Under the pieces are notes generated by a model, which made no database searches, was not told the origin of the DNA, and saw only the letters and a program-made list of their open reading frames with translations. A DNA stretch of 64,000 nucleotides from the NCBI GenBank assembly GCA_031292215.1, contig JARLHO010000071.1, positions 1-64,000 of the forward strand, in the 5' to 3' direction. Origin of the DNA: Syntrophobacteraceae bacterium (GTDB taxonomy: Bacteria > Desulfobacterota > Syntrophobacteria > Syntrophobacterales > Syntrophobacteraceae). Both the position numbers and the translations under genes were made by a program. Positions 39,381 through 47,301 of this stretch are shown one piece after another; position 1 is the stretch's first letter; each line of letters begins with the position of its first letter.

Positions 39381-40601
39381 TCAGGGCAGGATGATCCCCG
39401 ATTCCGTCCGATGCTCGGGCTCCGCAGCCTTTTGGGTTTCCTGGAAATCCTCCTGCCAGTAAAAATTCATCGAATCCATTATAAGGCGGGAGACGACCGG
39501 ATTTTTTCCGGAAGAGGACTCCCCGCCGAGGTCTGTTGCAATTCCCCATGCCCAGCGCGCCCGGACTTCCTCCCCCATGAGCTTTAAGGCCATCGCCTGC
39601 TCTTCGAAAAATCTTGTGAAAAGGCGCCGCTTGGCTCCCGCGCACAAAACCTCACCCGCATTTTCGATCACCTCCAGCCGCCGCTCCGCCTGGACCTCCC
39701 GGGGCACCACCAGAAAAGGGCTGCCAAGCCCCTTTAGCTTCTCGTGGAAGGGCGCCAGTTCGTCTTTGCCAAATCTTAGCCAGGAAAGGTCCATATCCTC
39801 GAGCAATCGCGAGATATCGATTTGGGTAAATAATTGCTCCGGATGCTCTATTTCCTCCATCAGCTCGTAGACATACGGTCTTACATCCGGTTCATGATAT
39901 CTCGCAAAAATCGCGCGTCCGCGCTCGAGTTGGCCGTAGGACCCCTTGCCGGTCCAAAAATCGACCATTTCGAAAAAGAGCCTCGCGGCGTGCCGGATCG
40001 GAACCTCGACGCCTCTTCGGGGCCCAAGCCCCGAGACTTGCTGCAGGTAGTCTTTGTAGAGCTTTTGCGTGGCCGATTCGGCGACCCGCACGTTAAAGCC
40101 CGAAAAATCGTCTTCAAAAAATGCGGTTACAAGCGCAGTGTTCCCGCTGGAGGCCTCCGGAACCAGGGCCGAGACGATCCACATGGCCCCCTGGACCTGG
40201 AAGAGATGAGCGATGGCTTTTCTATGCTCGCCCCGGATGAGAACGACCTTTTCCGGCGAGGAGGCGCCCTTCTCGGATGTAAAGCCCTTTTGCGAAAAGC
40301 GATATCCCGCCTGTTTGGCGTTTTTTCTGTAAGGAGATGCCTCCAAAATCTTTTCCAGGGCCTCGAAGGTCCTAAAGCCGATCGGGTTCGGATTGCGGCT
40401 CAACCGGTCGACAAGGGCTGCGGCAAGGCCCAGCCGATCGCCAACAGATTTGCAAAGGGATTTGAGGTACCCCTCGAAACTCTCGCCTTCAGGGTCCTGA
40501 ACGGCCAGACGGTCGAAAATCATTTCCAACTCGCCGGTTTCTTCCAGGGTGAGCAGGGGTTGATCTTTCCCTTTCTTGGTTGCTGCTTGCTTCTTGCTCA
40601 T
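39381..40601 (-). CDS. Conserved uncharacterised protein, 406 residues
   Basis: A soluble-looking protein of 406 residues without signal peptide, transmembrane segment or Cys cluster. It begins with a Lys-rich tail (MSKKQAATKKGKDQP). Patterns such as IGFRTFEALEKILEASPYRK, GPRRGVEVPIRHAARLFFEM and ITQIDISRLL-like segments are consistent with an alpha-helical fold. I do not recognise the family. AGGAAAT precedes ATG 40601. It is followed by yjbQ after 12 bases. The upstream gap to the selenoprotein terminator holds nothing else. Confidence 0.6.
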   Translation of the reverse strand: MSKKQAATKKGKDQPLLTLEETGELEMIFDRLAVQDPEGESFEGYLKSLCKSVGDRLGLAAALVDRLSRNPNPIGFRTFEALEKILEASPYRKNAKQAGYRFSQKGFTSEKGASSPEKVVLIRGEHRKAIAHLFQVQGAMWIVSALVPEASSGNTALVTAFFEDDFSGFNVRVAESATQKLYKDYLQQVSGLGPRRGVEVPIRHAARLFFEMVDFWTGKGSYGQLERGRAIFARYHEPDVRPYVYELMEEIEHPEQLFTQIDISRLLEDMDLSWLRFGKDELAPFHEKLKGLGSPFLVVPREVQAERRLEVIENAGEVLCAGAKRRLFTRFFEEQAMALKLMGEEVRARWAWGIATDLGGESSSGKNPVVSRLIMDSMNFYWQEDFQETQKAAEPEHRTESGIILP

Positions 40602-40698: not shown

Positions 40699-40746
40699 TA
40701 AAAAAAGCCCCATTCACACGCAGGTAAGAGTGATTCTGGGGCTTTC
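40699..40746 (-). terminator. Intrinsic terminator of the selenoprotein gene
   Basis: On the minus strand the arms aaagccccagaatcac and gtgtgaatggggctttt pair over about 14 bases with few mismatches, and the second arm runs into seven T residues. It lies 22 bases after the TAA stop of the Fe-S gene, ending that transcript. Confidence 0.85.
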
Positions 40747-40767: not shown

Positions 40768-41994
40768 TTATTCGTCTTCGGGTTCCACCTCGCGCGGCTC
40801 AATGATCAAAGAGTCGGCTACAAGCTCCCAGAGATACTTTACCTCAAGATACATCATGTCGTATTCTTTTCGCAGGCTCTTCATGATCTGGTCGCGACAG
40901 TTGTGACAGGGAGCGATAAGCATCTTCGCCCCGGTATCCTTAATCTGTTTGGCCTTGACCCGACCATAGAAGATACGCTCCTCGGAATAGGGAGAAGCCC
41001 ATGCTCCACCGCCCGCGCCGCAGCAGAAATTGTTGGCCCGGTTGGGGTACATGTCGACAAAATCTTCGCAACACTGCTGCGTAATCCACCTGGGTTCCTC
41101 GTAGTATCCATGGCCGAAGGTGCGCTCACCCTTGCGGGCGTAATTACACGGGTCATGGTAGGTGGTCAGATGCGTATGCACCGATTTATCGAGCTTAATG
41201 CGCCCCTCTTCAATATATTGCTTCAGAAGGTCGTGCACCGAGAGGAACTTGATGTTTTCACCGGCAAACCACTTTTGCAGACCAAGCCTGGTCGCATAGT
41301 AGGCGTGACCTCATTCGGGTAGCAGTAGATACTCGCATTCGAGTTTTTTGTAGTTCTCGACGATCCTGCCGACAATTTCCTTCATCGATTCGTCGTCGCC
41401 GGTAAAAAGACCCCAGTTGACCCCTTCCCAGTTCTCGGAAGTCGTGGTCCAGGATTCATTGGCAGCGTAGAGAATCTTCCACCAGTACTTCATGTCGTCG
41501 GGTTCGCCGAAGGGCTCTTTGGAATTGACCGTAATAAGGATTTTGGCGCCTTTTTTGTCAACCGGTACGGTGAAGCCGGGGAGTTCCTCGGAAAGTTCGG
41601 CCGCCAGGTCCTCTAGGAGGAACAGGAAGTCATCCTTGGGGATACCGACGTTGTTTCCGGTCTTGAGGCACATCGCAACACCCTTGTGCAAAACACCGGG
41701 CACTTTGTCCCTGGCCCGCTTGCCGCGAGCAGACCGAAGCATCGCGAGGATATCGACGCCCATCGGGCAGGCATACTCGCACCGTCCGCACAATGTACAT
41801 ACCCATGGAAATCTCGAATCGACCAGTTCCTGTTCGAGTCCGAGCACGACCATTCGCACAGCTTTGCGCACATCCATGTCGTCGACGCCCGTGACCGGGC
41901 ACCCGCCGGCGCAAGTTCCGCAGGTCAGACACAGATCTGCGAACTGGGTCGCGAGCTTATGCTTTTCACGCTTTGACAATACCAACGGATCCAT
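40768..41994 (-). CDS. HdrD/DsrK-like Fe-S protein with in-frame UGA, probable selenoprotein
   Basis: A single reading frame of 408 codons with one in-frame UGA at 41311-41313 (codon 228). The N-terminal part carries two 4Fe-4S motifs, CLTCGTCAGGCP and CTLCGRCEYACP. The C-terminal part is a CCG domain: YHDPC, NFCCGAGGG and APCHNC. The UGA falls in LLPE-X-GHAYYATRL, where relatives of the HdrB/HdrD/DsrK group have ECGHA, so X is read as selenocysteine. A hairpin right after the UGA fits a bacterial SECIS element. Start ATG 41994 has AGGAGA nearby; an upstream ATG at 42069 is less likely. The alternative is a recent nonsense mutation, which would leave two broken pieces. Confidence 0.8.
41277..41295 (-). 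promoter_or_regulatory. Candidate bacterial SECIS element
   Basis: On the minus strand the sequence gcgaccaggcttggtctgc folds into GACCA/UGGUC with loop GGCU, extended by a GC pair past a bulged U. The loop begins 22 nucleotides after the UGA, and it starts with G, both within the range described for SelB-dependent SECIS hairpins. Inferred by eye; not tested by folding software. Confidence 0.5.
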
Positions 41995-42177
41995 TATTCT
42001 TCTCCTGTCTCCAATCCATGCCCCCTGCGCGGGGAACAGCTCTTTCCTTGACGCGGGAAGTTTTTTCACAAACGAAGGGGTACGAAGCTAAAATTAATGA
42101 TCGCAGTTTTTCTTCATAACCCGAATAGAGCGCAAATGCAATCCCATTCTCGCACCTATTCGGCCGCCAAATCGCGA

Positions 42178-43395
42178 TCATCCGAGCGTCTTAACAGCCT
42201 GCCCGACCAGTTTGGCGATTTGGATCTTTTGGGGGCACAGCCGCTCGGCGCCGGAAAAATCGATCGTTTCGAGCTTTTCGCGCACCTCGCCGGGAATCGC
42301 GGCAAAGCAGGCCCTTGCGTAGTCAACCTCGCCATAGCTGTTATAGTACATCAAAAAGCGCATTATGTCACCAACCGGCGCGGCCTGCCCGATCTCCCGC
42401 TCGCAGATGCTCGTGCACCCCGCGCAGTAGCCCGCGGAGGTCTCCAGGGCGAAAACGTCCATGAGAGCCCGCTCTGCGGACGTAAGCCTGGTTTTGTCCA
42501 TTGCTGCGGCCACATTGGACATCAGAATCGTCATATTGGGCATCTGTGAGCAGATGGAGGCAATGTTTGGTTCCTCCCATACCGCTTTTAGTTTGGCCTG
42601 GGCGTCGGTGAACCCCCGTTTTATAAATCGGGAGGCAAGTTCCAGTTCCGCTTCCGAATCGACTGCGACCGACCCCTTGCCCTGGGTCTTCATTGCCGTT
42701 AGCCCTATGCCCGCCTTGGCGCACGCATCCACCGCCCGGCGCATTTTATCGGTGCGCATCAACCGGAAGTCGTAGCGGAGCATGATCCCGTCTATCCAGC
42801 CAAGCTTTGAGGCGGCAAGAAGCATATCCTCCATATTGTTGTGGGCGCTAAAGCCGATGAACTTGATCTTCCCCCGGGATTTGGCTTTTTCCGCCCAGGC
42901 CCGGATATCTTTTCCGAGCAGGCTCGGGGTGTTTATTCCGTGCAAAAAATACAAATCGATGTATTTGGCGTTGGTTCTTTGGAGCGACTGGTCAAGGTAT
43001 TGCGAAAGGCCGTCAGGGTCATACTTTGTCGATTTGGTGACCAGAAAGATGTCCTTTCGGATTTTCGGATATTTTTGCAGAAACTGTCCGATCCCTATCT
43101 CGGAGTTTCCCCCTTCGTAGGTTTCGGCCGTGTCCCAGTAGGTTACGCCCCACCGCAGGGCCTGTTTCAAAAGCAGATGATTGGTCCGGATATCAAACAT
43201 TCCGCCCAGCCCAAGGCAGGAAACCTTCACACCCGTTTTGCCAAAGGTCCTTACCGGGATCGGAACAGCCGTGGAACTATTCGTTTCGCCTTGAGCCTCG
43301 GCGGCCTCGAGTCCGGGAAGAAAAACCGAGCCTGCGCCCAGCGCGCCTGCAATCTTGAAAAAATTTCGACGGGAACAGCCTTCGTTATCCGACAT
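42178..43395 (-). CDS. Tat-exported aldo/keto reductase
   Basis: A 405-residue protein. A Tat signal lies at the N-terminus (CSRRNFFKIAGALGAGSVF). The aldo/keto reductase barrel shows TFGKTGVKVSCLGLGG, YWDTAETYEGG (Asp and Tyr), FLVTKST (Lys) and YFLHGIN (His), giving the catalytic tetrad. The C-terminal part contains CAGCTSICEREIG and a later GAERLCPQKI, a Cys set common in ferredoxin-like extensions of this subclass. ATG 43395 follows AAGGAG at seven bases. Cofactor (NADPH or an Fe-S path) and substrate are unknown. It is expected in the periplasm. Confidence 0.82.
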   Translation of the reverse strand: MSDNEGCSRRNFFKIAGALGAGSVFLPGLEAAEAQGETNSSTAVPIPVRTFGKTGVKVSCLGLGGMFDIRTNHLLLKQALRWGVTYWDTAETYEGGNSEIGIGQFLQKYPKIRKDIFLVTKSTKYDPDGLSQYLDQSLQRTNAKYIDLYFLHGINTPSLLGKDIRAWAEKAKSRGKIKFIGFSAHNNMEDMLLAASKLGWIDGIMLRYDFRLMRTDKMRRAVDACAKAGIGLTAMKTQGKGSVAVDSEAELELASRFIKRGFTDAQAKLKAVWEEPNIASICSQMPNMTILMSNVAAAMDKTRLTSAERALMDVFALETSAGYCAGCTSICEREIGQAAPVGDIMRFLMYYNSYGEVDYARACFAAIPGEVREKLETIDFSGAERLCPQKIQIAKLVGQAVKTLG

Positions 43396-43483
43396 CGCAT
43401 CTCTCCTTTTCGAACGGGCTGGAACCAAAGATTGTTTACGGGCTTGTCCGAGCCGAATGCAACCGCAAAGGTTTCCTCTACGC

Positions 43484-45256
43484 TCAAGCCCTAAGCAAAA
43501 GTGAATGTTTTCTGCTTCTCGATTCCCCTTCGGCGCTCACCCGGATGGCCCTGCGGCCGCTTACCGGGCATTCGTGTTCGCAGACACCGCAGCCGGTGCA
43601 CCTCTTGGGGTCCACCACCGGGGCCTGGAGCCGGATTTGCACCGTAAACTTTTGGCCTGCGGAGGCTCTTAGCTCGGGCGAAAACCCCGATTCAAATGTT
43701 ATCGAGTCGCCCGAGTTGGAAACGATCCGCCTTCTATCCGCCACGCCTCCCGCTTGGAGCGCGATAAAAAAGTCCCCCGTATCCAGGCGGTGAGCCTTTA
43801 CGGGCGCGGAAAGGCAAGCAGTGGTTCCCGAAAGACTTGCGACCGCGAGCCTTCCGTCTCGCACCTCGGGAAAACTCTCCTTTACAAATATCGCCTTGGG
43901 GCTAACCGGGCAGTTTTCCTGGCAGACGATGCACGGCTTATCCATTGCCCAGGGAAGACAGCGGCCTCGATCGACAAAAGCTGTGCCGATCCGAAGAGGG
44001 CCGTCCCCCCGAAAAGACCCCAGTCCCAGCTTTTCATCGAGCGACAACGGTCTTATGGCCGCGGTCGGGCATAGTTTACCGCAGGCGGTGCACTCCTTCT
44101 GGCAGCCGCTCGTTCCCGCCCGCATGTTCAAGGCCGGGGTCCACAGCCCCTCGATCCCCTCTTTTATCGTAGCGGGTTGTATGACGTTGGTGGGGCAGAC
44201 TCGCGCGCATTGGCCGCACCGGATGCAACGGTCAAGAAAATCGGGTTCGGAAAGCGCCCCCGGCGGGCGAATGAGAGCCGGATCGTAGTTTTTGCCAAGT
44301 CTTCCGTCGAGCCTTAGCATGGGGACGGCAGCCATTGCGCAGATGGCGGTCGTCACAAATTCCCGCTTGGACAGATCCGGTGCGAGGGTCTCCCCGCAAA
44401 GCGATCGAAACGGGTTGTAGCCCATGAGGTTGTCGCAGCAGGTGTCAAGGCAGTTCATGCACAGCACGCACTCGGAAATCCTTATGGCCCCCGCCGGGTC
44501 GCAGGCGCCTTCGCACCGGCTGTTGCAAAGGCCGCACTGGCTGCATTTCCCGCTCTTTTTCCCGGGCCGCCACAGGGCATATCTGCCCAAAAGGCCGAAC
44601 AGGGCGCCAAGAGGGCATACGAACCGGCAGTAAAACCGGGGAATCGCAAGGTTTAGAAGAAGCGCTCCCAAAAATAGGGCGCCACTTAGCCAGGCCCCGT
44701 CGTAATGTCTTTGGGAAGCGCTCACCATGCGAAGCGATGAGTCTGCCAGGGGCAGGAGCAACAAATTTACCGAGCGGTACACAAGAGGGATTGGATCCAA
44801 AAAACCGGTAAGAAGCGATGAGGAAGCTACGCTGTCGAGTTTAAAAAAGTATCCCCCAACCGCTGCGACCAGCAAAAACAGGAGCACATAATATTTACTT
44901 CTCTGGGCGCCCCGGTAACGGTTCACCTCGATTCTTTCCCGCACGCTCCTCGCCCGGGAACCGATCCAGCCAACGAGGTGATGGAGCGCGCCAAACGGGC
45001 AGACCCAGCCGCAGAAAAACCTTCCAAGAAGCGCGGTGATCGCCACTGTTACAACGGCCCAGAGCAGCCCGGCATAAAGGGTACGGGTCGTAGCGATCGA
45101 GCCCAGCGCAACGAGCGGGTCAAGCTGGAGAAACCAGTTTACCGGCCAGCCCCGCAACCGCCAAAACGACTCCCCAAGGGTCGCGCAAAGGCAAAACCAC
45201 AAGAACAGGGCAAGGAAAAAGGCCTGGTTTATTCGTCGGACGATTGTAATCCTCAT
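43484..45256 (-). CDS. Membrane polyferredoxin (NapH/NosR-like plus ferredoxin domains)
   Basis: A 590-residue protein. Residues 1-220 hold about four or five transmembrane helices with two CxxxCP motifs of the NapH/CcoG type (FCGWVCPFGA and YCRFVCPLGA). Then come ferredoxin clusters: CSQCGLCNSRC, CVLCMNCLDTC, CIRCGQCARVCP, CQKECTACGKLCP, CIVCQENCP and finally CTGCGVCEHECP. A twin-arginine-like SKREFVTTAI lies between them, as in NapG. It looks like a fused quinol- or periplasm-facing electron conduit. It is transcribed after DUF362 and DUF6599 genes, with 7 bases between this gene and DUF362. Donor and acceptor are unknown. Confidence 0.85.
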   Translation of the reverse strand: MRITIVRRINQAFFLALFLWFCLCATLGESFWRLRGWPVNWFLQLDPLVALGSIATTRTLYAGLLWAVVTVAITALLGRFFCGWVCPFGALHHLVGWIGSRARSVRERIEVNRYRGAQRSKYYVLLFLLVAAVGGYFFKLDSVASSSLLTGFLDPIPLVYRSVNLLLLPLADSSLRMVSASQRHYDGAWLSGALFLGALLLNLAIPRFYCRFVCPLGALFGLLGRYALWRPGKKSGKCSQCGLCNSRCEGACDPAGAIRISECVLCMNCLDTCCDNLMGYNPFRSLCGETLAPDLSKREFVTTAICAMAAVPMLRLDGRLGKNYDPALIRPPGALSEPDFLDRCIRCGQCARVCPTNVIQPATIKEGIEGLWTPALNMRAGTSGCQKECTACGKLCPTAAIRPLSLDEKLGLGSFRGDGPLRIGTAFVDRGRCLPWAMDKPCIVCQENCPVSPKAIFVKESFPEVRDGRLAVASLSGTTACLSAPVKAHRLDTGDFFIALQAGGVADRRRIVSNSGDSITFESGFSPELRASAGQKFTVQIRLQAPVVDPKRCTGCGVCEHECPVSGRRAIRVSAEGESRSRKHSLLLRA

Positions 45257-45263
45257 CTGATTT

Positions 45264-46268
45264 TCACCCTATGGATACGCGGTATGGTTTTAGCGATTCG
45301 AAATCCGCTGTCCCGACCCCCGCCCGTTCGGCCTGCATTATAAATGGCAAATCCTTGGCCGTTTTCCCCAAAAGGCGCGCGCCCGCGGAATCTGCTGCGA
45401 CCTGGTCTGTGCTTGCTATCATCGTCTCGGTCTTTTTGAGATCGGATAGGGACCCGCCGGTCGGCCCGTTGGACACCATGGTGAATGTGCCGTCCAGGAT
45501 GACTAAAGTGGGCTTTATCATGAGAGCCAGATCTTTTATGAAAGTGTGTATATTCTGGTGGAAGATGTTTCGCCTGCCGCCGATAAATCCGTACCAGTTC
45601 TTCATGGCCATCGAAGCGCCGCTCCGGTGGTGATCCTTTACAGGGCAGATCCCGATAAGCTTTGTGACCCCCGTAAATGCGCCGGTAAAAACCGGCCAGT
45701 CCCGGATAAGGCTCGAACCCGGGGCCGTAAACTCCGTAAATAACGATTCCCGGGGCAAAATCAACTCGGCCCCCGAGCTCCGCGCCGCCTCCCCGATTCC
45801 GCTAAGCGAAAAACAGCTCTCCGGGTCGTTTATCGGGTTATCGGTTACGGCTACCGATGCGGCGCCGGCGCGAAAGCACAACCGCGTCACCTCGGCTACC
45901 AACTCCGGACTTGTCGTAGCACACAGGGAGGGCGGGGAAGCGAATGCGCAGTTGACCTTCATGAGGACCCGGTCTCCCTTTTTTATGAAACTACCCATGC
46001 CGCCCAGCGCCTCTATCGCGCCGTCAATGGCCTTAATTCTGCCGCCCCCCGTGGCTATCGCAATCTTTTTTCCAACACCCGGCACGATAAAATCGGGCAG
46101 GACCCCCGGGGGCTTTTCCGCCGAAGCGCGAGGGCCAAAAGGGTCGTGCAGAAAATAGCCAACCCCGGCGGCAACTCCTACGGTCGCCCCGGCTTTTGCC
46201 AGCCGGATCAAAAAATCGCGCCTGTCCATCCCGGGTTGTCCGGGCCGCTCTTTTCCCATCTTTTTCAT
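45264..46268 (-). CDS. Tat-exported DUF362 protein
   Basis: A 334-residue protein with a Tat signal (DRRDFLIRLAKAGATVGVAA). The body matches DUF362: KKGDRVLMKVNCAFA, GAASVAVTDNP, and the region GICPVKDHHRSGASMAMKNW. DUF362 proteins often accompany ferredoxin domains; here the ferredoxin clusters are on the next gene. The start overlaps the end of the DUF6599 gene by four bases, so translation is coupled. Role is not known. Confidence 0.82.
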   Translation of the reverse strand: MKKMGKERPGQPGMDRRDFLIRLAKAGATVGVAAGVGYFLHDPFGPRASAEKPPGVLPDFIVPGVGKKIAIATGGGRIKAIDGAIEALGGMGSFIKKGDRVLMKVNCAFASPPSLCATTSPELVAEVTRLCFRAGAASVAVTDNPINDPESCFSLSGIGEAARSSGAELILPRESLFTEFTAPGSSLIRDWPVFTGAFTGVTKLIGICPVKDHHRSGASMAMKNWYGFIGGRRNIFHQNIHTFIKDLALMIKPTLVILDGTFTMVSNGPTGGSLSDLKKTETMIASTDQVAADSAGARLLGKTAKDLPFIMQAERAGVGTADFESLKPYRVSIG

Positions 46269-47239
46269 CGCACCACCTCGGATATCTTGCGGTAGACCCG
46301 CAAGGCGACATCTTTTGCGCTTTCAAGCTTATCGACTTCGTGGGCGCCGGCAAAAAAAGCCCCCCTGTGCATGACCACTTCATAGGTATCGAACACCTTG
46401 TATATTTTGGCGCCGGGGGCGTCAATCATTTCACCGGCCGCCACTCCTCCGTTTTCCAGGAGAAACTTCCCGTAGGCTGCGGCAATATCTTCTGCTTCCT
46501 TCGGGCTCTTTCGCCGGGAAATAAAGGCGGTGACCTGGCAGCCCCGATCGGTGTATACGGCGGTATAAACCCGATCCAGGCCGCTCATGGAGAAAACATC
46601 CTTCATGTGGAGCGAAATGGTCGAGCGGTCCAGAAATTTATGCGGAAAAAAAGACTCGATCGTAAGTCCCCCGGAGCGGGGTTGACCTTTTACGAGGTTT
46701 ATCGCCAAAATCTTCATGTCGCCCATAAGGCCCGGGGCAGACGAGGTGATTTCGAAATATTTTGGTCCTGCTGCAAAAAAGATCGCATCGGCTGTGCGGT
46801 AGGCGGAGTCGCCCCCACCGCTCGACGCAAGGTTTAGCGGCTTGGAATCTTTTCGCTTTTGGAGGCTGTAGACCGAAAAGGCGCCGGCCGAATCCCGCAT
46901 CTGGTAGACGCTTAGTTCGATCCAGCTTTTCGCATCGGTTTTTTTGGCAAACCGCCTGACGGTGAGTTCTACGAATCCGGTCGAAAGATAGAGATCGGCT
47001 TTGCCGTCGATCTTATCGGACAGGGTCCCGGGATCGAAAGTCTCCTCGCGGCCAAAGGGGGCAAGATCGGCTGGAAGGTTTGCCGCAACACCCAACGGAA
47101 CCCCCGAGACACCGGGGCCTCTCCCGGATGCGGATTTTGGGGGATTTGCGCCATACCAATACACCCCGCCCGCTATTACTGCCAATAGAGTCAGTAGGAA
47201 GACCCCGATACAGGTTTCCAATACGCCCGCTCGCCGCAT
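46265..47239 (-). CDS. DUF6599-like membrane-anchored protein
   Basis: A 324-residue protein with an N-terminal signal anchor (residues about 10-28, CIGVFLLTLLAVIAGGVYW). The rest is expected outside the cytoplasm and matches the pattern I associate with DUF6599: LAPFGREETFDPGTLSDKIDG, YLSTGFVELTVRRF and AGAFSVYSLQKR. ATG 47239 has AGGAGG four bases upstream and is preferred to the GTG before it. It is the first gene of the operon that continues with DUF362 and the polyferredoxin. Confidence 0.75.
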   Translation of the reverse strand: MRRAGVLETCIGVFLLTLLAVIAGGVYWYGANPPKSASGRGPGVSGVPLGVAANLPADLAPFGREETFDPGTLSDKIDGKADLYLSTGFVELTVRRFAKKTDAKSWIELSVYQMRDSAGAFSVYSLQKRKDSKPLNLASSGGGDSAYRTADAIFFAAGPKYFEITSSAPGLMGDMKILAINLVKGQPRSGGLTIESFFPHKFLDRSTISLHMKDVFSMSGLDRVYTAVYTDRGCQVTAFISRRKSPKEAEDIAAAYGKFLLENGGVAAGEMIDAPGAKIYKVFDTYEVVMHRGAFFAGAHEVDKLESAKDVALRVYRKISEVVR

Positions 47240-47301
47240 CACGCCTCCTGTGTGGCCGGTTGGCTAAATATAGCAAGCGGGAAGAGAGCAAACAAGGACC
47301 G

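Follow-up and report, generated by a model that had tools for sequence, protein, structure and literature searches.

A selenocysteine (Sec)-containing "Fe-S oxidoreductase (GlpC)" was described in 2006 with five proteins, three of them in Syntrophobacter fumaroxidans (Zhang et al., 2006; PMC1794560). The operon was given as glpC-hdrA-frhD-frhG-frhA, and all three S. fumaroxidans genes were placed in five-gene operons (PMC1794560). A later census counted 47 such proteins in 31 organisms, which puts GlpC among the more frequent selenoproteins of anaerobes (Peng et al., 2016; PMC5029168). The Sec GlpC/COG0247 family is marked by the motif UGH (2026 review; PMC13188914). A soluble Sec-containing HdrD (HdrD4) from Desulfobacterium autotrophicum HRM2 was described in 2009 (PMC2702500). 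In EtfD, Cys581 is a ligand of an extra linear cluster, and His583 is a ligand of the noncubane cluster, which it caps and renders non-catalytic (PMC13083937). The bacterial SECIS element is a hairpin shortly after the UGA, with a G in a small apical loop (PMC1088965).

The gene examined here lies on the minus strand of the window, the whole 64-kb stretch of DNA that was analysed. Its features and immediate surroundings are as follows.

40768-41994, minus strand: gene for a predicted Sec-containing, HdrD-like (fused HdrC+HdrB) Fe-S protein, 408 aa with the UGA read through
41311-41313, minus strand: UGA, predicted Sec codon 228 in the motif PE-U-GHA, from translation and orthologue comparison
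41755-41937, minus strand: HdrC-like two-[4Fe-4S] ferredoxin domain (Cys 22, 25, 28, 32, 66, 69, 72, 76)
40885-41163, minus strand: C-terminal CCG domain, predicted noncubane [4Fe-4S] site (Cys 283, 324, 325, 363, 366)
41277-41295, minus strand: bacterial SECIS-like hairpin GCGACCA-GGCU-UGGUCUGC, 16-34 nt 3' of the UGA, loop beginning GG
40700-40746, minus strand: intrinsic terminator right behind the Sec gene, from folding (z -4.5)
39381-40601, minus strand: conserved uncharacterised gene (406 aa) directly downstream of the Sec gene, adjacent in 21 of 25 orthologous loci

Translation of the minus strand from 41994 to 40768 gives 408 residues followed by TAA, with codon 228 as the sole UGA, in the context LLLPE-U-GHAYYAT. 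An AGGAG stands ahead of the start codon ATG at 41994, and the plus strand of 40768-41994 holds no gene. A mechanical ORF caller divides the gene into two ORFs, 41311-42069 and 40768-41238. A first-pass annotation had described, with no strand given, one frame of 408 codons with a single UGA at 41311-41313, two ferredoxin motifs before it and an intact CCG domain after it. The translation bears this out, and both the ferredoxin motifs (residues 20-80) and the CCG domain (residues 278-370) exceed their Pfam cut-offs.

Homologues were collected from 60 genomes, comprising the source genome and relatives. The UGA occupies codon 228 within PE-U-GHA in all 33 distinct orthologues (78-91% identical), and their aligned part holds no other stop, which places the conservation of the frame far beyond chance. 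Among the matches listed from these genomes, every full-length close homologue at 78-91% identity has one in-frame UGA; two have a single additional stop, TAA or TAG, located beyond the aligned part used for the conservation comparison. Across 80 family rows, into which a few genes were entered twice, the site is UGA in 60, Cys in 16, Thr in two (one gene entered twice), Leu in one and Gly in one. Most distant homologues carry UGA or Cys, and in most non-UGA homologues the ECGHA-type motif is otherwise identical around the site. Bacterial selenoproteins are marked by an in-frame UGA where homologues carry Cys. Such a UGA is found here at the Cys of ECGHA, where it had been placed from the single sequence, and no sense codon replaces it in any of the orthologues. 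Selection after the UGA is as strong as before it: amino-acid identity among orthologues is 0.869 after versus 0.822 before, and differences after the UGA fall mainly at third codon positions (0.135/0.052/0.462 for the first, second and third). The first-pass annotation had named decay on either side of the UGA as a counter-sign; after the UGA there is none.

The Thr, Leu and Gly rows belong to a single paralogue clade of the window's own genus (L083, L056, which is also L086, and L085; support 100/100). The GH adjoining the site is retained in this clade, a single substitution separates its Leu codon TTA from TGA, and a SECIS-like hairpin is still present in L083 and L056. The residue at codon 228 is therefore not always essential.

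The hairpin, GCGACCAGGCUUGGUCUGC, lies 16-34 nt past the UGA and has a four-base loop beginning with GG, which agrees with the bacterial SECIS description of a structure just behind the UGA with a G in a small apical loop. Codons 234-236 and 238 (GCG ACC AGG .. GGT) are unvarying in 33 of 33 orthologues; codons of the gene that are invariant in amino acid have a mean codon entropy of 1.2 bits, and the SECIS codons give the lowest of 104 windows of codons. A hairpin better than synonymous recoding (p<0.05) is found in 51 of 58 UGA genes versus 3 of 16 Cys genes. Of these three, L081 and L099 are sisters within a clade still holding a UGA gene and L074 is placed among UGA genes, positions that fit SECIS remnants, as these are expected after a change from Sec to Cys. 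Distant UGA genes carry different hairpins of equal stability (AACCC..GGGUU, GGUCC..GGACU). Pairing stands at 97% and drops to about 50% or less when the position is slid by one nucleotide. Compensatory changes are few, amounting to two pairs among the UGA genes compared, and the 44-nt SECIS region, taken by itself, shows no exceptional stability against dinucleotide shuffles (z -0.9); the informative comparisons are the codon-aware ones. Judged by its conservation, the hairpin is a predicted bacterial SECIS, and it answers the SECIS check that the first-pass annotation had asked for.

The selA, selB, selC and selD genes that were to be sought are all present in the 4.9-Mb source genome. Profile searches gave 614 bits for SelA, 362 bits for SelB and 384 bits for SelD, and a tRNA-Sec with anticodon UCA (74 bits, Rfam match) lies on a separate contig. 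Within the 64-kb window, an Rfam scan gave no match and ARAGORN found no tRNA. The SelD gene, on contig C53, itself holds one in-frame UGA, a known trait of many SelD proteins.

Two readings would deny a selenoprotein at this locus. The two ORFs returned by the mechanical caller are what a pseudogene, or a gene broken in two by a nonsense mutation or sequencing error, would look like, and in that case only two fragments or nothing functional would be made. The UGA, however, recurs at codon 228 in dozens of genomes and across orders, the aligned part is otherwise free of stops, and beyond the UGA constraint persists and synonymous sites are frozen. Conservation of the UGA among orthologues leads us to reject this explanation, whose probability is negligible. 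Alternatively, suppression or a change of code might cause a residue other than Sec, Trp or Cys, to be inserted at the UGA. Nothing in particular speaks for this, except that the Cys homologues suggest an inserted Cys would be tolerable; against it, the UGA falls exactly at a Cys position, the Sec machinery is complete, the SECIS-like hairpin occurs mainly in UGA genes, and the remaining genes of the window are open with normal ends under table 11. This is very improbable, if slightly less so than a broken gene. Decoding of UGA 228 as Sec, as predicted from the genes, is by comparison close to certain. The original view of the split-looking gene as one selenoprotein is upheld by the conserved UGA, the machinery, the hairpin and the continued constraint, which all agree, and we hold with high confidence that the best overall explanation is one intact selenoprotein gene with a soluble HdrBC-fusion product. 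The annotation is to be corrected accordingly, from a split gene to a whole one, and dozens of orthologues would likewise be broken by a plain ORF caller.

The product is very probably an HdrD-like Fe-S oxidoreductase. Profile and fold comparison pair its N-terminus with HdrC and its C-terminus with HdrB and EtfD, and the predicted structure (pLDDT 90.5) has its best fold match in EtfD (9ojn; TM 0.70, E 7e-15), followed by HdrB (8rwn, 5odc) and HdrC. NCBIfam scores are 202 bits for HmcF (NF045711), 184 for TmcB (NF045724) and 165 for DsrK (NF045796). Since these lie far under the equivalog cut-offs of 750, 735 and 400, orthology to HmcF, TmcB or DsrK was rejected. When the profile is aligned to EtfD, Sec228 coincides with Cys581, His230 with His583 and Ala231 with Cys584, and the remaining ligand positions of EtfD's extra cluster are non-Cys in the Sec protein. 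The predicted noncubane-cluster cysteines 283, 324, 325, 363 and 366 are invariant among the homologues compared, and His230 is nearly so. Only the C-terminal CCG motif is complete, whereas catalytic HdrB and HdrD are recognised by two complete motifs, for two noncubane clusters. From this ligand pattern, the protein likely carries two cubane clusters and one noncubane cluster, with Sec at the place of the second cluster.

Mechanistically, SelB and Sec-tRNA-Sec would read UGA 228 as selenocysteine, guided by the downstream SECIS hairpin, and the product would be a soluble HdrBC-fusion protein resembling HdrD, TmcB, HmcF and DsrK. Its HdrC-like N-terminus would hold two cubane [4Fe-4S] clusters that exchange electrons with the single noncubane [4Fe-4S] cluster of the C-terminal CCG domain, a route suggested by the conserved cysteines and the fold. 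The first CCG domain appears to have lost its own cluster ligands save at position 228, which Sec would occupy. On the geometry of the alignment, Sec probably lies next to the noncubane cluster. Sec228 and His230 are probably turned toward that cluster, so the selenolate would probably act as a nucleophile, either on the substrate side or in tuning the cluster, and the reaction with a partner of the HdrA-MvhD type would be electron transfer or disulfide/thiol chemistry. Such a structurally interpretable position for Sec offers a testable idea of the role of selenium.

The most likely function, as predicted, is that of a cytoplasmic HdrBC-fusion (HdrD-like) oxidoreductase of the electron-transfer or disulfide type. 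Putative disulfide chemistry has a little less than an even chance. Somewhat less probable still, though a serious contender, is that the protein serves electron transfer only, as EtfD does; Sec and His would then be cluster-tuning ligands and no disulfide chemistry would occur. EtfD is the closest solved fold and its clusters are fully coordinated, His230 aligns with the capping His583 that makes the noncubane cluster non-catalytic, and Thr, Leu or Gly can substitute for Sec in paralogues. Yet EtfD has its second cluster at this place and the Sec protein is without the other ligands; moreover, retention of Sec in all orthologues would be costly if its role were passive. It is rather unlikely that Sec, as the only retained ligand position of the degenerate CCG domain, replaces the whole second noncubane cluster. 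As part of that same speculative and doubtful reading, Sec and the His230-capped noncubane [4Fe-4S] cluster would form a mixed selenolate/Fe-S active site, which is biochemically undescribed.

Outside the genus of the window, most of the orthologous loci have upstream genes for HdrA, MvhD, an Fe-S protein, a HydB/ShyB-like and a HydG/ShyC-like protein; at one locus, HdrA is fused to a GltD-like part. These HdrA-MvhD-HydBG neighbours suggest an electron-bifurcating or -confurcating Hdr complex. The set is absent from the Sec-gene locus in the window's own genus, and for HydB the source genome holds solely a 40% homologue. The window, like several relatives from its genus, has in place of this set genes that here occupy 42178-47242 on the minus strand, upstream of the Sec gene, and encode a TAT-signal aldo-keto reductase, a NapGH-like polyferredoxin, a DUF362 and a DUF6599 protein. 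The downstream gene at 39381-40601 is retained even at loci where other neighbours are exchanged; its protein has no Pfam or NCBIfam family, and its model (pLDDT 84) matches no PDB fold at an E value under 0.09. A second UGA member of the source genome (63% identical, contig C53) lies in an operon of the published hdrA-frhD-frhG-frhA type. At two further loci (L052, L054), HdrA genes adjoining paralogous UGA genes have CSM-U (CxxU), giving neighbouring selenoprotein genes.

With TmcB, HmcF and DsrK the Sec protein shares its domain order, and the 165-202 bits extend across most of its length. EtfD (9ojn) and HdrB/HdrC (5odc, 8rwn) share its fold and C-terminal noncubane-cluster motif; the Sec protein differs in that its first CCG domain has lost the cluster ligands, with Sec in place of the first CxxC Cys, and in having no membrane part. 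The first-pass annotation had found Sec at this position of a CCG-domain protein less familiar, but the protein, with Sec-Gly-His in a ferredoxin and CCG protein, falls within the established GlpC family (COG0247/PTHR43551), with which it shares the Sec motif UGH and lineage. One relative genome (G015) has exactly three UGA homologues, among them an 83% orthologue of the Sec gene, and from the matching count we infer that this orthologue is among the three published S. fumaroxidans proteins. It adjoins HdrA-MvhD-HydBG, in contrast to the five-gene operons of the published account. The published operon context is that of the 63-64% paralogues and not of the window's clade, whose members stand beside HdrA-MvhD-HydBG or, in its own genus, DUF362/NapGH/AKR genes. 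HdrD4 of D. autotrophicum HRM2 is, by its description, likewise a soluble HdrC+HdrB fusion with Sec. Because GlpC has been listed since 2006 and a Sec HdrD since 2009, the gene is not new: it is a genuine member of an already known selenoprotein family.
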